Assembly: GCF_014230055.1 (NCBI RefSeq)
Contig: NZ_JACHVA010000143.1
Coordinates: 62,001 to 126,000 of the forward strand
Direction of reading: 5' to 3'
DNA: 64,000 bases
Source: Puniceicoccus vermicola
Lineage (GTDB): Bacteria; Verrucomicrobiota; Verrucomicrobiia; Opitutales; Puniceicoccaceae
Part shown: positions 15,126 to 32,744 of the stretch, piece after piece
Layout of the letters: each line of letters starts with the position of its first letter
Numbering within the stretch: position 1 is the first letter of the stretch
Translations under genes and position numbers: made by a program
The notes under the pieces: generated by a model
Told to the model about the DNA's origin: nothing
Databases searched by the model: none
Seen by the model: only the letters and a program-made list of their open reading frames with translations

Positions 15126-15690
15126 GAATCGGCGGCTGAAGCCGCCGGTCCTTGGGCTTGAGCCGTGAACCCTACCTCTACGGAGGCAATGCATCGGAGC
15201 AGAAAGTAGCCGCTCAGCTTCAGCTGCGTGGCATCAGAATCGCCGCCCCCTCACATCGCAACAAGAACTCCCGTAACCGCCAAAATGAGTCGCCTCGCCT
15301 ACGAATCGGCGGCTAAAGCCGCCGCCCCTTGGACCTCGGGCCGTGAACCCTACCTCTACGGAGGCAATGCATCGGAGCAGAAAGTAGCTGCTCAGCTTCA
15401 GCTGCGCGGCATCAGAATGCCCGCCCCCCTCACATCGCGACAAAACTCCCGTAACCTTCAAAATGAGTCGCCCTCTCCTACAAATCGGCGGCTGAAGCCG
15501 CCGGTCCTTGAGCCTCGGCCGTGAACCCTACTTCTACGGAGACATGCGTAGGAGCAGAAAGCAACCGCTCAGCTTCAGCTGCGCGGTCCTGCGCACGCGA
15601 AAACTCTTCCCACGAGGGGCGGCAGAAAAGAACGCGATGGGGGCAGCTGAAGCTCCTCCCCTACAAAAAAGCCGCCTCCGGAATAGACCG
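15126..15690. repeat. Tandem palindromic repeat, three units of ~178 bp
   Basis: The hairpin GGCGGCT-(g/a)a-AGCCGCC starts at 15131, 15308 and 15487 (periods 177 and 179). Each unit also contains a GTAG or related foot followed by the imperfect hairpin CGCTCAGCTTCAGCTGCG, and the string CCCTACNTCTACGGAG. The third unit departs after the CAGCT hairpin: it continues into sequence resembling the unit at 32264-32577 (a GGGGGCAGCTGAAGCTCC block), so it is a chimera of two families. The 600-bp gap 15124-15725 holds no gene. Confidence 0.85.
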
Positions 15691-27419: not shown

Positions 27420-27991
27420 ACATACCGGGAGCAAGTCGCCCTCCGTTCGGCGCAGGACTTTCCCGGCATGAGCCTGTCGAATGCAGTCGCGCGATTTCTC
27501 CGGCCAGAGGCGCATTGGCACTCCCACCTCAACGAACTTTTGCCCTTCCTCAATCGTAGAGGCACGGTGATAACCGTTTCTAAGGGTTCGCAGATGACTC
27601 CCAGAGACTTCACACCCCCCAACGAAATGGCTCTCGCCATTCCGCTCCCACTTCAAAGAGAGGTGCCAATGCCCCACCTCTTTCGGCCCGAGGCCGAGGT
27701 GCAGCTGAAGCTGCGGACTGACTAAGCGTTCCACAGGATTCCAACCAGTGCCACGAATCTAGAGCTGGACGTGTCCTGCGAAGCATGGAAGCTCTCGCTA
27801 CTTTGGGCGGCCACCATTCGCGCACGACTTTCCCGGCATGAGCCTGTCGAATGCTGTCGTGCGATTTCTCCGGCCAGAAAAGAGACAAATATCCGTAATC
27901 TACACCGCGCCGCGCGAAACTCTCGGAACACAATTCAATCCAATCCCGCTCACCCGAATGACTGAAGTCAATCGGGAACACTGGGGCGCAG
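27420..27991. repeat. Mixed REP-like intergenic tract with a 58-bp direct duplication
   Basis: After the eno terminator, about 570 bp hold no gene. A 58-bp segment at 27451-27508 recurs at 27821-27878. In the second copy the ends form perfect arms CGCACGAC/GTCGTGCG around CATGAGCCTGTCG; the first copy has diverged in both arms. Between them lie AATGGC-tctc-GCCATT (also at 5972-5998), a GTGCAGCTGAAGCTGCGG hairpin and a GGAAGCTCTCGCTACTTT fragment identical to part of the 48-kb array unit. It looks like a mosaic of several families. Confidence 0.65.
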
Positions 27992-28378
27992 CTACTGCTT
28001 CCGATACCACTTCCCTTTTGCATCCTGAAGCCACACCCCAGGAGCGGAGGTCTTGGCCAATTGCGCAGCCCTCTGCTTTTGCACCTTATCCACGGGCTGG
28101 CCCGTCTGCTTGGCGATCTCTTGGTAAACGGTCATCCGGTCCTTATTCTCGGCCTTGACCATCTTATCCTCCTCAGTCGAGATCGACCCACGAACTGAAA
28201 GAAGTCCATCATTGGTCACCCCAAGAAGGCCTTGCTCCTTCAGGCTGTCAATTGTCGGGAGGCGCTCCTCCATTCGCTCCCGAATTTGGTCGAGATCGGC
28301 CGCCTGTAGCGAGGGAACAGCTACCAAGAGCGCGAAAAGAAATAGAGAGATACTAGGAATGAGGGTCTTCGATTTCAT
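27992..28378 (-). CDS. ydbL: YdbL/DUF1318 family periplasmic protein
   Basis: A 128-residue secreted protein. A signal peptide (hydrophobic LIPSISLFLFALLVAVPS, cleavage after LQA) precedes the DUF1318 domain. Its typical features are the helix SLKEQGLLGVTNDGLLSVRG, the YQEIAKQTGQPVDKVQ segment and the W-containing C-terminus. In E. coli YdbL accompanies YnbE and YdbH, an envelope-spanning phospholipid-transport bridge related to TamB/YhdP, and is thought to assist their assembly. The same three-gene order is present here, 13 bp after ynbE. Confidence 0.85.
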   Translation of the reverse strand: MKSKTLIPSISLFLFALLVAVPSLQAADLDQIRERMEERLPTIDSLKEQGLLGVTNDGLLSVRGSISTEEDKMVKAENKDRMTVYQEIAKQTGQPVDKVQKQRAAQLAKTSAPGVWLQDAKGKWYRKQ

Positions 28379-28391
28379 AAATGGATACGAT

Positions 28392-28598
28392 TTAGGAAGA
28401 AGAATCTTCGGTGATCACAGTTTTCGATTGAGAGTCGAGGTCGTCAAAGAAGCTGTTCAGCTGTTCCTCCACTTGGACATTCACATCGACGATGATGTGA
28501 ACCGGCTCGACTCGGTGCGTTATCTCATGGTGAGTCGTGCATGAGGCCAGCAAAAGAGGCAAAAAAGGGAGAGACCAGAGAAAGAGCACTTTGGGCAT
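28392..28598 (-). CDS. ynbE: YnbE-family outer-membrane lipoprotein
   Basis: A 68-residue lipoprotein. The lipobox LLASC puts the lipidated cysteine near residue 19. After it come a beta-strand-prone EITHRVEPVHIIVDVNVQVE and a short helical tail, matching YnbE. In E. coli YnbE extends the beta-groove of YdbH at the outer membrane by strand addition. The location between ydbH and ydbL is the diagnostic synteny. The assignment rests on size, lipobox and neighbours as much as on sequence. Confidence 0.8.
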   Translation of the reverse strand: MPKVLFLWSLPFLPLLLASCTTHHEITHRVEPVHIIVDVNVQVEEQLNSFFDDLDSQSKTVITEDSSS

Positions 28599-28687: not shown

Positions 28688-30529
28688 TCACCCCCCTGCG
28701 GAAAGAGAAATCTGCTTTCCCAAAAGAACTAAACGGAAGACTTTTTCGAAAGGAATCTGGAAATTGAAATCGAGGTTGATCGATGGAGCCTGAATATCCG
28801 GAGCCCGCGAGCTTCCTGATATTTCAATAAAAGTATTTTTCGCCCCTTTTCTCAAAAAGAACACTTCGACGTGAAGGGACTTCAACCGAAGATCGCTTAC
28901 CGCCCGGGTGAGGACATCTGAGTTTCCCGCTCCTCCTCCCAAGGCCTCGGCCACCCACTCCGGGTCTTTAAATCGGATTGTAGCCTCTTGACTGCTATCG
29001 AGATCAAGACCGGCCTCGAGCGCAATCAGTTTGCCTTCTTTCGCAGCAACCCTCACTCGTCCACTCATTCGTCCAGTTGCTTCCACCTCGTCGAGGCGGG
29101 CGACCCGAACGACCTCATCCAGATCGATTCCCCGCAGATGAAGCGAGGCATCAAAATCCCGGCCTGGATCGGTCAGGTTGAGGCTAGACGGTTCATCCAA
29201 AGAGAGTTCACCTCCCAGTAACTTCCATTCGAAACGGTCAACTTGGAGAACCTTTTCCGGCGAAAGACTCCAGTCAATTCGCCCGGGCCCCGATCGAAAG
29301 CGGTCATACTCCACTCGATCCCACTCCAAGGTCTGCATTCCCAAAGTGGCCAAATCCGGAAGCAACTCGAGACCGAGCCATCCCCGAAAACCATCCAAAA
29401 TCACTGGAGTGTCCTGAATCCCCAATTGTCCCCCAGCAACTCGAACGAAACCTCGGACAACTGGGGCATCCACCGGACCGGTTCCATGAAAGAGTGCCCC
29501 GAGCTCTCCCCCGATTCGCAAAACCGAGAGGTCCCCCCCGAGACTGAAAGGAAGTGAAACCGACTCCCCGCGAATTGGCCCGATGCCCAGCCATCCGTCA
29601 CCGGATAGGATCGGATCGAAGCGCAATGACTGGATTCCGTGCACCGCGAGTCCCGCAGGCAGTCCAGAGACTCCATAAAAGAGATCGACCCGGTCAGCAC
29701 CCGGAATGGCTTCTGCCTCGAGGATGATCTCCGGCGCCTCAACCTCCCTGTCGCCAGCTCCAGCCTTCAGGTTCTTCAGCTTCGCCTCCACGTTGAGCAC
29801 CGGAAAATCGAATCGAGACGGGTCCTTTGTCCACTGAGCTGCAGCCCGCAGCCCGAAACTTTCCAGATGTAGAACGTCGGAAACGGCAGATCCAGCAAAG
29901 GCCCAGCGGATCCAAGCCATCGGATCTTCCACCGACAAATAGCCCGACGCCGCACGCATCCGATTTCCCCCCACTTTTCCGACCAAACCGAGCATCGTAT
30001 CCCGATTCGGCACTGCAGCATAAGCTTCCAGACGATGCTCCTCGAAAAGTGCCCCCAGATTCGCAAGGACTGGCTCCCGCTCCTCCCACTTGAAACGGAA
30101 CGATTCGAGCCAAAACCTCGAAAGGGGTATACTCGGAATCGAAGGCATCGCAAATTTGCGAAAAGCTCCTTCCTCCTCGACCGATTCCTCCTCTTTGGTT
30201 TCCTCTTCCTCCCGATCTTTCGACGGAGCGTATTCGATGGATACCCCTGACAACCGAACCGAATCTGCGGAACCCCGGATCAATCGAGGAATGCGGTATC
30301 GGACCTCCGCCTCTTCTATGCCGACCGAACCATCCGGCCAATCCGCTGTCACCCCTTCCACAGAGCTGGAGGTCAGAGTGACTCCAATCCCACGAATCTC
30401 GGGATCAGAAAAACCCGCTTTCTGGAATCCAAACCTCACCGCCATCTCAATCACCGAGGGAAGGCTGAACCACGCCGCGAGAACAATCACGACGAGGGAA
30501 GCGAAGGCGATGAGAAAAAACCGTTTCAT
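28688..30529 (-). CDS. ydbH: YdbH-like AsmA-superfamily intermembrane lipid-transport protein
   Basis: A 613-residue protein anchored in the inner membrane by one span (residues 4-24, starting MKRFFLIAF), with the rest in the periplasm as repeated beta-strands. The upstream in-frame codon at 30697 would put 56 hydrophilic residues before the membrane anchor and is rejected. Low-complexity acidic linker EEEETKEEESVEEEG lies near residue 115. The C-terminus resembles the YdbH conserved end (GRMSGRVRV, FLRKGAKNTFIEISGSS, INLDFNFQIPF). It is shorter than the E. coli protein (about 880). The ynbE and ydbL genes follow directly, supporting a lipid bridge between membranes. Confidence 0.8.
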   Translation of the reverse strand: MKRFFLIAFASLVVIVLAAWFSLPSVIEMAVRFGFQKAGFSDPEIRGIGVTLTSSSVEGVTADWPDGSVGIEEAEVRYRIPRLIRGSADSVRLSGVSIEYAPSKDREEEETKEEESVEEEGAFRKFAMPSIPSIPLSRFWLESFRFKWEEREPVLANLGALFEEHRLEAYAAVPNRDTMLGLVGKVGGNRMRAASGYLSVEDPMAWIRWAFAGSAVSDVLHLESFGLRAAAQWTKDPSRFDFPVLNVEAKLKNLKAGAGDREVEAPEIILEAEAIPGADRVDLFYGVSGLPAGLAVHGIQSLRFDPILSGDGWLGIGPIRGESVSLPFSLGGDLSVLRIGGELGALFHGTGPVDAPVVRGFVRVAGGQLGIQDTPVILDGFRGWLGLELLPDLATLGMQTLEWDRVEYDRFRSGPGRIDWSLSPEKVLQVDRFEWKLLGGELSLDEPSSLNLTDPGRDFDASLHLRGIDLDEVVRVARLDEVEATGRMSGRVRVAAKEGKLIALEAGLDLDSSQEATIRFKDPEWVAEALGGGAGNSDVLTRAVSDLRLKSLHVEVFFLRKGAKNTFIEISGSSRAPDIQAPSINLDFNFQIPFEKVFRLVLLGKQISLSAGG

Positions 30530-30638: not shown

Positions 30639-31490
30639 ATGAGTTCCCCGACGATGACGATTCGCCCGATGTCTTCATCCGAAGTCCCCCTCGCCATTGA
30701 GTGGGCTGACCGCGAAGGATGGAATCCAGGCCTCGACGATGCCCAGACATTCCACGCCGCGGATCCCGAAGGATTTTGGATTGGTGAAGTCGATCACGAA
30801 CCCGTCGCCGTTATCTCCGCGGTCCGGTCCGGTAAAAATTTCGGATTTCTCGGATTCTACATCGTCCATCCCGACTTCCGCGCACAGGGTTATGGCTTGG
30901 CCATCTGGAATAGAGCGATGGACCACTTGGCCGGAAGAACCATCGGCCTCGACGGTGTCGTCGATCAACAGGACAACTACCGCAAGTCCGGATTTCAGAT
31001 CGCCTATCGCAATATCCGGCAACAAGGGACCTCACAAAACTTCGCCCCCGCAGACTCCCGCATCGTTCCCATTTCGCAGATTCCCTTCGAAACCCTGTGC
31101 ACCTATGATCGCCGCTATTTTCCCGCCGATCGTTCGGAATTCCTCCAGAGCTGGATCGGTGAGGAACACGGATTAAGCCGAGCCTTTCTGGATGGGCAGA
31201 CCCTCCGCGGATACAGCACACTCAGACAGTGCGCGGAGGGCTGGAAATTTGGCCCCCTTTTCGCCGACACCCCAGCTATCGCCGAAACGCTCTTCCAAGC
31301 GCTGCAAAACGAAATCCCGACCGGAGAAACGATTTTTCTCGATACTCCCGAGCCCAATACCGAAGCCACCGACCTGGCCCAGCGCTACAAGATGCGACCG
31401 GTCTTCGAAACGGCTCGCATGTACCGAGGCCAAGAGCCTTCCGTTTCCTTGGAAGGAATCTATGGAGTCACCAGCTTTGAACTGGGATAA
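30639..31490 (+). CDS. GNAT-family N-acetyltransferase
   Basis: A 283-residue acetyltransferase with a GNAT N-terminal half (GFLGFYIVHPDFRAQGYGLAIW contains the acetyl-CoA loop R-A-Q-G-Y-G) and a second, C-terminal domain of about 130 residues typical of the two-domain YitI-like group. The substrate is unknown. The frame is open much further upstream, but that part is antisense to ydbH. The start MSSPTMTIRP at 30639, or the nearby ATG at 30654, gives the normal family length. It is divergent from ydbH, with 109 bp between starts. Confidence 0.85.
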   Translation: MSSPTMTIRPMSSSEVPLAIEWADREGWNPGLDDAQTFHAADPEGFWIGEVDHEPVAVISAVRSGKNFGFLGFYIVHPDFRAQGYGLAIWNRAMDHLAGRTIGLDGVVDQQDNYRKSGFQIAYRNIRQQGTSQNFAPADSRIVPISQIPFETLCTYDRRYFPADRSEFLQSWIGEEHGLSRAFLDGQTLRGYSTLRQCAEGWKFGPLFADTPAIAETLFQALQNEIPTGETIFLDTPEPNTEATDLAQRYKMRPVFETARMYRGQEPSVSLEGIYGVTSFELG

Positions 31491-31541: not shown

Positions 31542-31970
31542 TTACTTCTGAAACCAGTCGCCTTCTTCGTCCTGAACCCAGACTTGAGGTCCGGCATCCT
31601 TGATCATTTGCGCAGCCGAACTTTTCTGAACCTTTTCAACGTCTTCACCCTTTTCCTTGGCGACGATATCATAGTAGGCCTTCAGATCATCGTTTTGCTC
31701 CTGAACGTGCTTCGACTGCATGGGAGAGATATCCCCTCGGATCGAGTAGAGGCCTTCATTGGTAATCCCGACCAATCCTTGGTCCATAAGCTCATTAATC
31801 TGGTCCTCACGTTCCATCAGCTGATTCTTCAGCGTGCTCAGGTCAGGAGCTCCCGATCCCTGCATTACGGTATCGTCCAAATCAGTCGTTTCGTTGTCCG
31901 CCAAAGCGGCACTTCCACTCAAAATTGCGGGGATCAAAAGGATAAGAAGCAGAGGTCGGTGTTTAATCAT
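31542..31970 (-). CDS. Second YdbL/DUF1318-like periplasmic protein
   Basis: A 142-residue paralogue of the protein at 27992-28378. It has a signal peptide (LLLILLIPAILSGSAALA) followed by a 25-residue acidic insert and the DUF1318 core: INELMDQGLVGITNEGLYSIRG aligns with the first copy, as do YYDIVAKEKGEDVEKVQ and the C-terminal WVQDEEGDWF. It lies 53 bp after a small lipoprotein gene, copying the ynbE-ydbL order, but no second ydbH is present. It may be an alternative chaperone for the same bridge or for another AsmA-like protein elsewhere. Confidence 0.78.
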   Translation of the reverse strand: MIKHRPLLLILLIPAILSGSAALADNETTDLDDTVMQGSGAPDLSTLKNQLMEREDQINELMDQGLVGITNEGLYSIRGDISPMQSKHVQEQNDDLKAYYDIVAKEKGEDVEKVQKSSAAQMIKDAGPQVWVQDEEGDWFQK

Positions 31971-32023
31971 GATCTTAAATTATTGCCCTTACTTCCAAAG
32001 AATCAATCTCCCTTTTGGGAGCT

Positions 32024-32203
32024 TCAGTCGCCGGAACCGTCGGACATTTTGCCCATTTCCGAATAAAAACTATCGACGTTCCGATCCACCGAGTTGTTTT
32101 TCCCCATCGTTCCGGGGGCAGCCGGATAATTCGGGCCCGAAGAACTGCAGCCGGAAAGAAAAAGCGAGAAACATGCAATCGAGCCGATGAGAACTATTTT
32201 CAT
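32024..32203 (-). CDS. Small lipoprotein, possible YnbE analogue
   Basis: A 59-residue lipoprotein: signal IVLIGSIACFSLFLSGC with the lipidated Cys at about residue 18, then a Ser/Pro/Gly-rich linker and the short helix VDRNVDSFYSEMGKM. That helix resembles the C-terminal VEEQLNSFFDDLD of the YnbE-like protein at 28392-28598, but the beta-strand region of YnbE is missing. The start ATG at 32203 is preferred; the longer frame to 32260 adds 19 residues without a lipoprotein signal at the N-terminus. It sits directly upstream of the second ydbL-like gene. Confidence 0.62.
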   Translation of the reverse strand: MKIVLIGSIACFSLFLSGCSSSGPNYPAAPGTMGKNNSVDRNVDSFYSEMGKMSDGSGD

Positions 32204-32263
32204 GGTAGAACCAAAAAAGGTGATCCCCCCATACACAGCAAGATCGAAGCTCGCTCTCAAAAA

Positions 32264-32577
32264 GTAGCCGCTCAGCTTTAGCTGCGCGGTCCCGCGGTTA
32301 CGAAAGGCCCTCCAGGGGTCCGACCGAGCAGACGTGATGGGGGCAGCTAAAGCTACTCCCCTACGAAAAGTAGCCGCTCAGCTTTAGCTGCGCGGTCCTG
32401 CGATTGCGGAAGGCCTACAGGGTTCCGACCGAGCAGACGTGATGGGGGCAGCTAAAGCTACTCCCCTACGAAAGGTAGCCGCTCAGCTTTAGCTGCGCGG
32501 TCCTGCGATTAGGAAAGGCCCTCCAGGGGTCCCGACCGTGCAGACGCAATAGGGGCAGCTAAAGCTGCACCCCTACG
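32264..32577. repeat. Tandem palindromic repeat, three units of ~105 bp
   Basis: GTAGCCGCTCAGCTTTAGC starts units at 32264, 32370 and 32475 (periods 106 and 105). Each unit opens with a GTAG-footed CAGCT-tt-AGCTG hairpin and closes with GGGGGCAGCTAAAGCTAC, whose complement is again GTAG-footed. Two inverted REP-like hairpins therefore make up one unit. The 557-bp gap 32204-32760 holds this array, a GTGCG-t-CACGCAC-like dyad near 32587 and the IclR operator candidate, and no further gene. Confidence 0.85.
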
Positions 32578-32744
32578 GAAAGCTTCCTGAGTGCGTCACG
32601 CACAATCGCATTCCCCCAACAAGAGCCGAAGCTCCGCGGCTGCGCAACGTCCATCGCAGCTCCCATTTTCCAGTTTCCCTCCTCTCCTCAGAAAGGAGTT
32701 TATTCCCATTCCAGAAATTCCTTGCGCCGTTACTTTTCATATTT

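Follow-up and report, generated by a model that had tools for sequence, protein, structure and literature searches.

The YdbH-YnbE bridge is believed to deliver lipids to the outer membrane of bacteria. In E. coli, Kumar, Davis and Ruiz reportedly described in 2024 how this bridge forms, with YnbE contributing strands at the end of YdbH, and they are said to have proposed that YdbL prevents runaway multimerisation of YnbE. The E. coli bridge model, with YdbH, YnbE and YdbL, is cited in PMC12045153 and PMC12977461.

The 64-kb window analysed here is part of contig C143 of the 5.2-Mb genome of Puniceicoccus vermicola (G000) and contains a complete operon of this type on the minus strand. The operon encodes a YdbH-like AsmA-superfamily protein (28688..30529; PF11739 E=1e-15), a YnbE-type lipoprotein with the strand segment PVHIIVDVNVQ and the helix VEEQLNSFFDDLD (28392..28598), and a YdbL/DUF1318 protein (27992..28378; PF07027 E=1.2e-23; 28oj E=2.1e-9). 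We refer to its ynbE-ydbL part as pair a. A 59-nt direct repeat, 95% identical, is found between enolase and ydbL (27450-27508 and 27820-27878). About 1 kb upstream of the complete operon lies a further minus-strand unit, pair b (31542-32203). It consists of a 59-aa lipoprotein (lipoprotein b, P0002; 32024..32203), whose signal peptide and lipobox LSGC were read from the sequence, and a 142-aa YdbL paralogue (DUF1318b; 31542..31970; PF07027 E=2.3e-15). Pair b has the lipoprotein-then-DUF1318 order and the YdbL fold (28oj) of the E. coli ydbH-ynbE-ydbL operon, and as in E. coli YnbE-YdbL the DUF1318 protein has a signal peptide and its partner a lipobox. Unlike the E. coli operon, however, the unit has no ydbH. 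A preliminary description had placed both reading frames here, in the same order as the pair at 28598-27992 but without a ydbH partner, and we found this to be correct, YdbH preceding only the latter pair.

On the minus strand the genes run lipoprotein b, DUF1318b, ydbH, ynbE and ydbL, with a GNAT acetyltransferase gene (30654..31490; PF18014 E=1.7e-28) on the plus strand between pair b and the ydbH operon. A transcript shared by pair b and ydbH would have to cross this opposite-strand gene. Scans for promoters and terminators gave no signal above shuffles. The position directly upstream of lipoprotein b is occupied not by ydbH, which lies downstream, past the GNAT gene, but by an array of ~105-nt repeats (GTAGCCGCTCAGCTTTAGCTGCGCGG ... 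GGGGCAGCTAAAGCTACTCCCC) at 32260-32582, which is also present at 15206-15583. The 26-nt core of the repeat occurs 109 times in the genome (<=2 mismatches) versus 0 for the reversed control; the repeats are a dispersed, genome-wide family.

Judged by sequence and predicted structure, DUF1318b is a true YdbL paralogue with the YdbL fold. It passes the curated cut-off of PF07027 (57.3 bits versus 27), aligns with YdbL-a over 102 aa without gaps (P0001/P0003 comparison; 44% identity, E=4e-31), is 30% identical to E. coli YdbL and retains the conserved residues of the YdbL family. An AlphaFold model built from a ten-sequence alignment has pLDDT values of 93-98 over blocks from residue 51 on. Comparison of the model with solved structures gave the crystal structure of E. 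coli YdbL as the sole clear match (28oj; Foldseek E=8e-6), with a Z of 13.4 and an rmsd of 1.5 Å over 86/87 residues; the next-best structure reached 5.3. The protein is composed of a signal peptide, a disordered acidic N-terminal extension of ~20 residues and the YdbL-fold domain (residues 44-142). In the acidic stretch, which is disordered in the model, 6 of 19 residues are D/E and none is K/R. Since it follows the signal peptide and precedes the domain, and since the orthologue in UBA4506 (G002), a same-genus genome of the class Opitutia, Verrucomicrobiota, has an acidic stretch at the same place, we regard it as an N-terminal extension and not as an insert in the domain. The ‘25-residue acidic insert’ noted earlier is thus acidic, but it is shorter (about 20 residues) and is located at the junction of signal peptide and domain, outside the domain itself. 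Compared with E. coli YdbL, DUF1318b has this extension and an extra N-terminal helix. The signal peptide of the G002 protein (L013:6861-7295) contains LASC, where the G000 copy has no cysteine, and DUF1318b might therefore itself be a lipoprotein in that species.

Pair b had been described as a second ynbE/ydbL-like pair. It is real, but it is not the sole extra pair, as a third is located on another contig. This third DUF1318 gene of G000 (C9:6378-6641) directly follows a gene for a small lipoprotein (L012:6021-6248) that has the helix but no strands. The resulting pair c (L012:6021-6644 in G000, where it is flanked by a carboxylase gene and ATP synthase genes; L016:276-891 and L015:7963-8585 in the others) resembles pair b in combining a lipoprotein with DUF1318 in the absence of ydbH, and in having kept the helix and not the strand segment. 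It differs from pair b in branching separately in the tree (100/100) and in being present in all three congeneric genomes. G002 contains pairs a, b and c, and the gene order b-GNAT-ydbH-ynbE-ydbL-enolase is retained there, with the lipoprotein orthologue at L013:6627-6794 and the GNAT gene at L013:7308-8171 arranged as in G000. In G003 the full operon and pair c are present and pair b is absent; consequently pair b is not needed for the bridge in that genome.

Within the order, DUF1318 is present in 106 of 273 genomes, and more than one copy was found only in the genus of Puniceicoccus vermicola and in G191. The second copy of G191 was considered as a further orphan and rejected, as ynbE and ydbH genes of its own accompany it. 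In a sample of the phylum, DUF1318 was found in 135 of 383 genomes, and the additional multi-copy genomes all belong to family f30. A scan of the collection with alignment A4 gave UBA4506 as the sole holder of pair b. The check for co-occurrence across Opitutae proposed earlier showed none, pair b being restricted to the genus among the sampled genomes.

The lipoprotein of pair b is composed of a lipobox signal peptide (MKIVLIGSIACFSLFLSGC), a short Gly/Pro/Ser linker and a C-terminal YnbE-like helix (VDRNVDSFYSEMG). Pfam and NCBIfam scans assigned it to no family, and a lipoprotein profile had no match among solved structures. PF13617 (YnbE) did not match it, nor did it match the YnbE-type lipoproteins of the phylum that were scanned, apart from one at E=0.18. 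BLASTP against YnbE-a gave no alignment, a result that is uninformative at such a length. For this reason we built a position-specific score for the helix from 33 non-redundant segments of lipoproteins upstream of DUF1318 in the phylum (consensus about VDRALDDFFGDLD). Lipoprotein b scored 10.4 bits, whereas its shuffled versions averaged -13.6 (p=5e-5, 20,000 shuffles), which supports the YnbE-like helix of the preliminary description. The G002 orthologue scored 10.8 bits at VEKSVDRVYSDMD (p<5e-5), and the three c lipoproteins gave p values from 5e-4 to 2e-3. The highest score among 56 unrelated lipobox ORFs (57 when lipoprotein b is counted) was 0.1. When true YnbE proteins were left out one at a time their lowest score was 20.7, and since lipoprotein b falls below this value we consider it a diverged relative of YnbE.

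A second profile, for the PIHITVDVNVK-like strand segment that immediately precedes the helix, was made from 41 upstream lipoproteins. No such segment was found in the b and c lipoproteins, the best scores being -0.7 to -7.3 bits versus 7.4 for the lowest YnbE. The -0.7 bits belong to lipoprotein b (shuffle p 0.03), and the segment chosen there overlaps the helix. The beta region is thus missing, as had been proposed, whereas YnbE proteins score at least 7.4 bits and E. coli YnbE has the strand segment PITINMNVKIE (p=0.0015), which in that species is proposed to lengthen the groove of YdbH. A structural model of lipoprotein b, of low confidence (mean pLDDT 60), has a signal helix and a C-terminal helix at 37-54 and no strand. 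With no strands to add, lipoprotein b should not be a piece of the bridge. Automatic recovery of upstream lipoproteins succeeded at most but not all parsed loci; those recovered, other than b and c, contain the helix, and nearly all have the strand segment.

The lack of a segment for strand addition also speaks against pair b having specialised as the adaptor of some other AsmA-like protein, such as TamB or AsmA-family proteins elsewhere in the genome. Possible partners do exist in G000, as TamB and two further AsmA-family matches are encoded on other contigs, but none of these genes adjoins pair b. In G000 and G002 the neighbours of pair b include no AsmA-like gene besides the operon's own ydbH. 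A search of the genome for a second ydbH gave only one PF11739 match, although Pfam misses divergent YdbH proteins such as that of G003. The protein in the YdbH position of G003 (L014:3235-4902, 555 aa) has no Pfam match. G003 also encodes a DUF748/AsmA protein of 475 aa ~3.3 kb from pair c, which would suit an adaptor; its gene, however, is encoded on the other strand and separated from the pair by further genes, and at the equivalent place in G000 it is missing. No TamB match was obtained in G003. We consider such an adaptor role quite unlikely.

The origin of DUF1318b was examined by building a tree from 64 DUF1318 domains, which is based on only 102 columns. The two b proteins group together (100/94), nested in a larger clade that also includes the G000 and G002 a proteins (100/99), which indicates that b arose by duplication within the genus. 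A separate clade on a long stem unites the three c proteins, and the G003 a protein is placed elsewhere with weak support. DUF1318b branching with the genus's own YdbL, and the pair being kept at the same place in G002, agree with the earlier suggestion of a diverged duplicate. Between G000 and G002 the proteins of pair b are 40% and 35% identical; the corresponding values are 69% for YdbL-a and 65% for YnbE-a. No ratio is given for pair b because its synonymous changes are saturated.

Rapid divergence of this kind would be expected of a decaying duplicate without function, as would the absence of pair b from G003. However, the frames are intact, and the lipobox and helix have been kept in two species despite saturated synonymous sites, so that decay appears very improbable. 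Intact frames, signals and helix at such divergence argue for a functional pair. The same fast divergence could instead reflect a job outside lipid transport, in which a small outer-membrane lipoprotein anchors a YdbL-fold domain for another periplasmic task, e.g. general chaperoning or a role in the cell wall or under stress. The acidic extension of DUF1318b fits this explanation, as does pair c, which adjoins ATP synthase genes at a great distance from any ydbH and has a long stem in the tree. Pair b, on the other hand, adjoins the ydbH operon in two species and has conserved YdbL-family residues, and we therefore regard such a function as unlikely.

We favour, with a probability of roughly one half, the reading that pair b is a genus-level ynbE-ydbL duplicate that has been re-specialised, its outer-membrane lipoprotein holding a DUF1318 chaperone outside the bridge. 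The ynbE-ydbL part of the neighbouring operon would have been duplicated within the genus and then re-specialised. YnbE-type lipoproteins would hold the DUF1318 chaperone by their C-terminal helix, and the strand segment would be the part that plugs into YdbH. Lipoprotein b would then sit in the outer membrane and keep a YdbL-like chaperone in place while taking no part in the bridge itself. The likeliest role would be that of an accessory of the adjacent YdbH-YnbE bridge, either limiting or capping YnbE assembly or serving as a chaperone store at the outer membrane; another client would be less likely.

We infer binding of DUF1318 by the helix because lipoprotein b shares the helix with YnbE and because DUF1318 is the only gene that accompanies the helix in all three pair types. 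The helix is also the only mature segment common to the lipoproteins of all three. The motif is present in YnbE of Verrucomicrobiota, Acidobacteria and Aminicenantes, and the loci of the latter two have the canonical ydbH-ynbE-ydbL order. Lipoprotein b has a helix motif that was not detected in E. coli YnbE (p=0.46). Since E. coli YnbE works with YdbL and yet fails the helix score, the helix does not act as the YdbL-binding element in every lineage, and our proposal is limited to this lineage and its relatives. The helix may be connected with a further N-terminal helix in the DUF1318 proteins of these bacteria, one that E. coli YdbL lacks.

Physical partnership of lipoprotein and DUF1318 is supported by the f30 proteins, in which a lipoprotein segment and DUF1318 are fused in one polypeptide (L072-L080), unlike the separate proteins of pair b. 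As in pair b, a lipobox precedes DUF1318, and each genome has two copies, one of them without a ydbH-like neighbour. The other fused copy overlaps or abuts an ORF of 592-608 aa in the ydbH position, which had no Pfam match in the one case scanned. L072, the only f30 protein scored, has kept a strand-like segment (p=0.011) and has no YnbE helix.

The protein family was already known; the genome has two separate strand-less pairs, one more than had been described. It is tempting, though we hold this only tentatively, to see in pairs b and c a natural split of the two jobs of YnbE, the strand joining YdbH and the helix anchoring DUF1318. On the question of how YdbL acts on YnbE, the two strand-less pair lineages point to this 13-residue helix as the likely DUF1318-binding element in the phylum. 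They also show that YdbL-type chaperones can persist without a YdbH of their own. If the proposed split is correct, pairs b and c would represent a class of DUF1318 modules that are anchored in the outer membrane and operate with no dedicated bridge protein.
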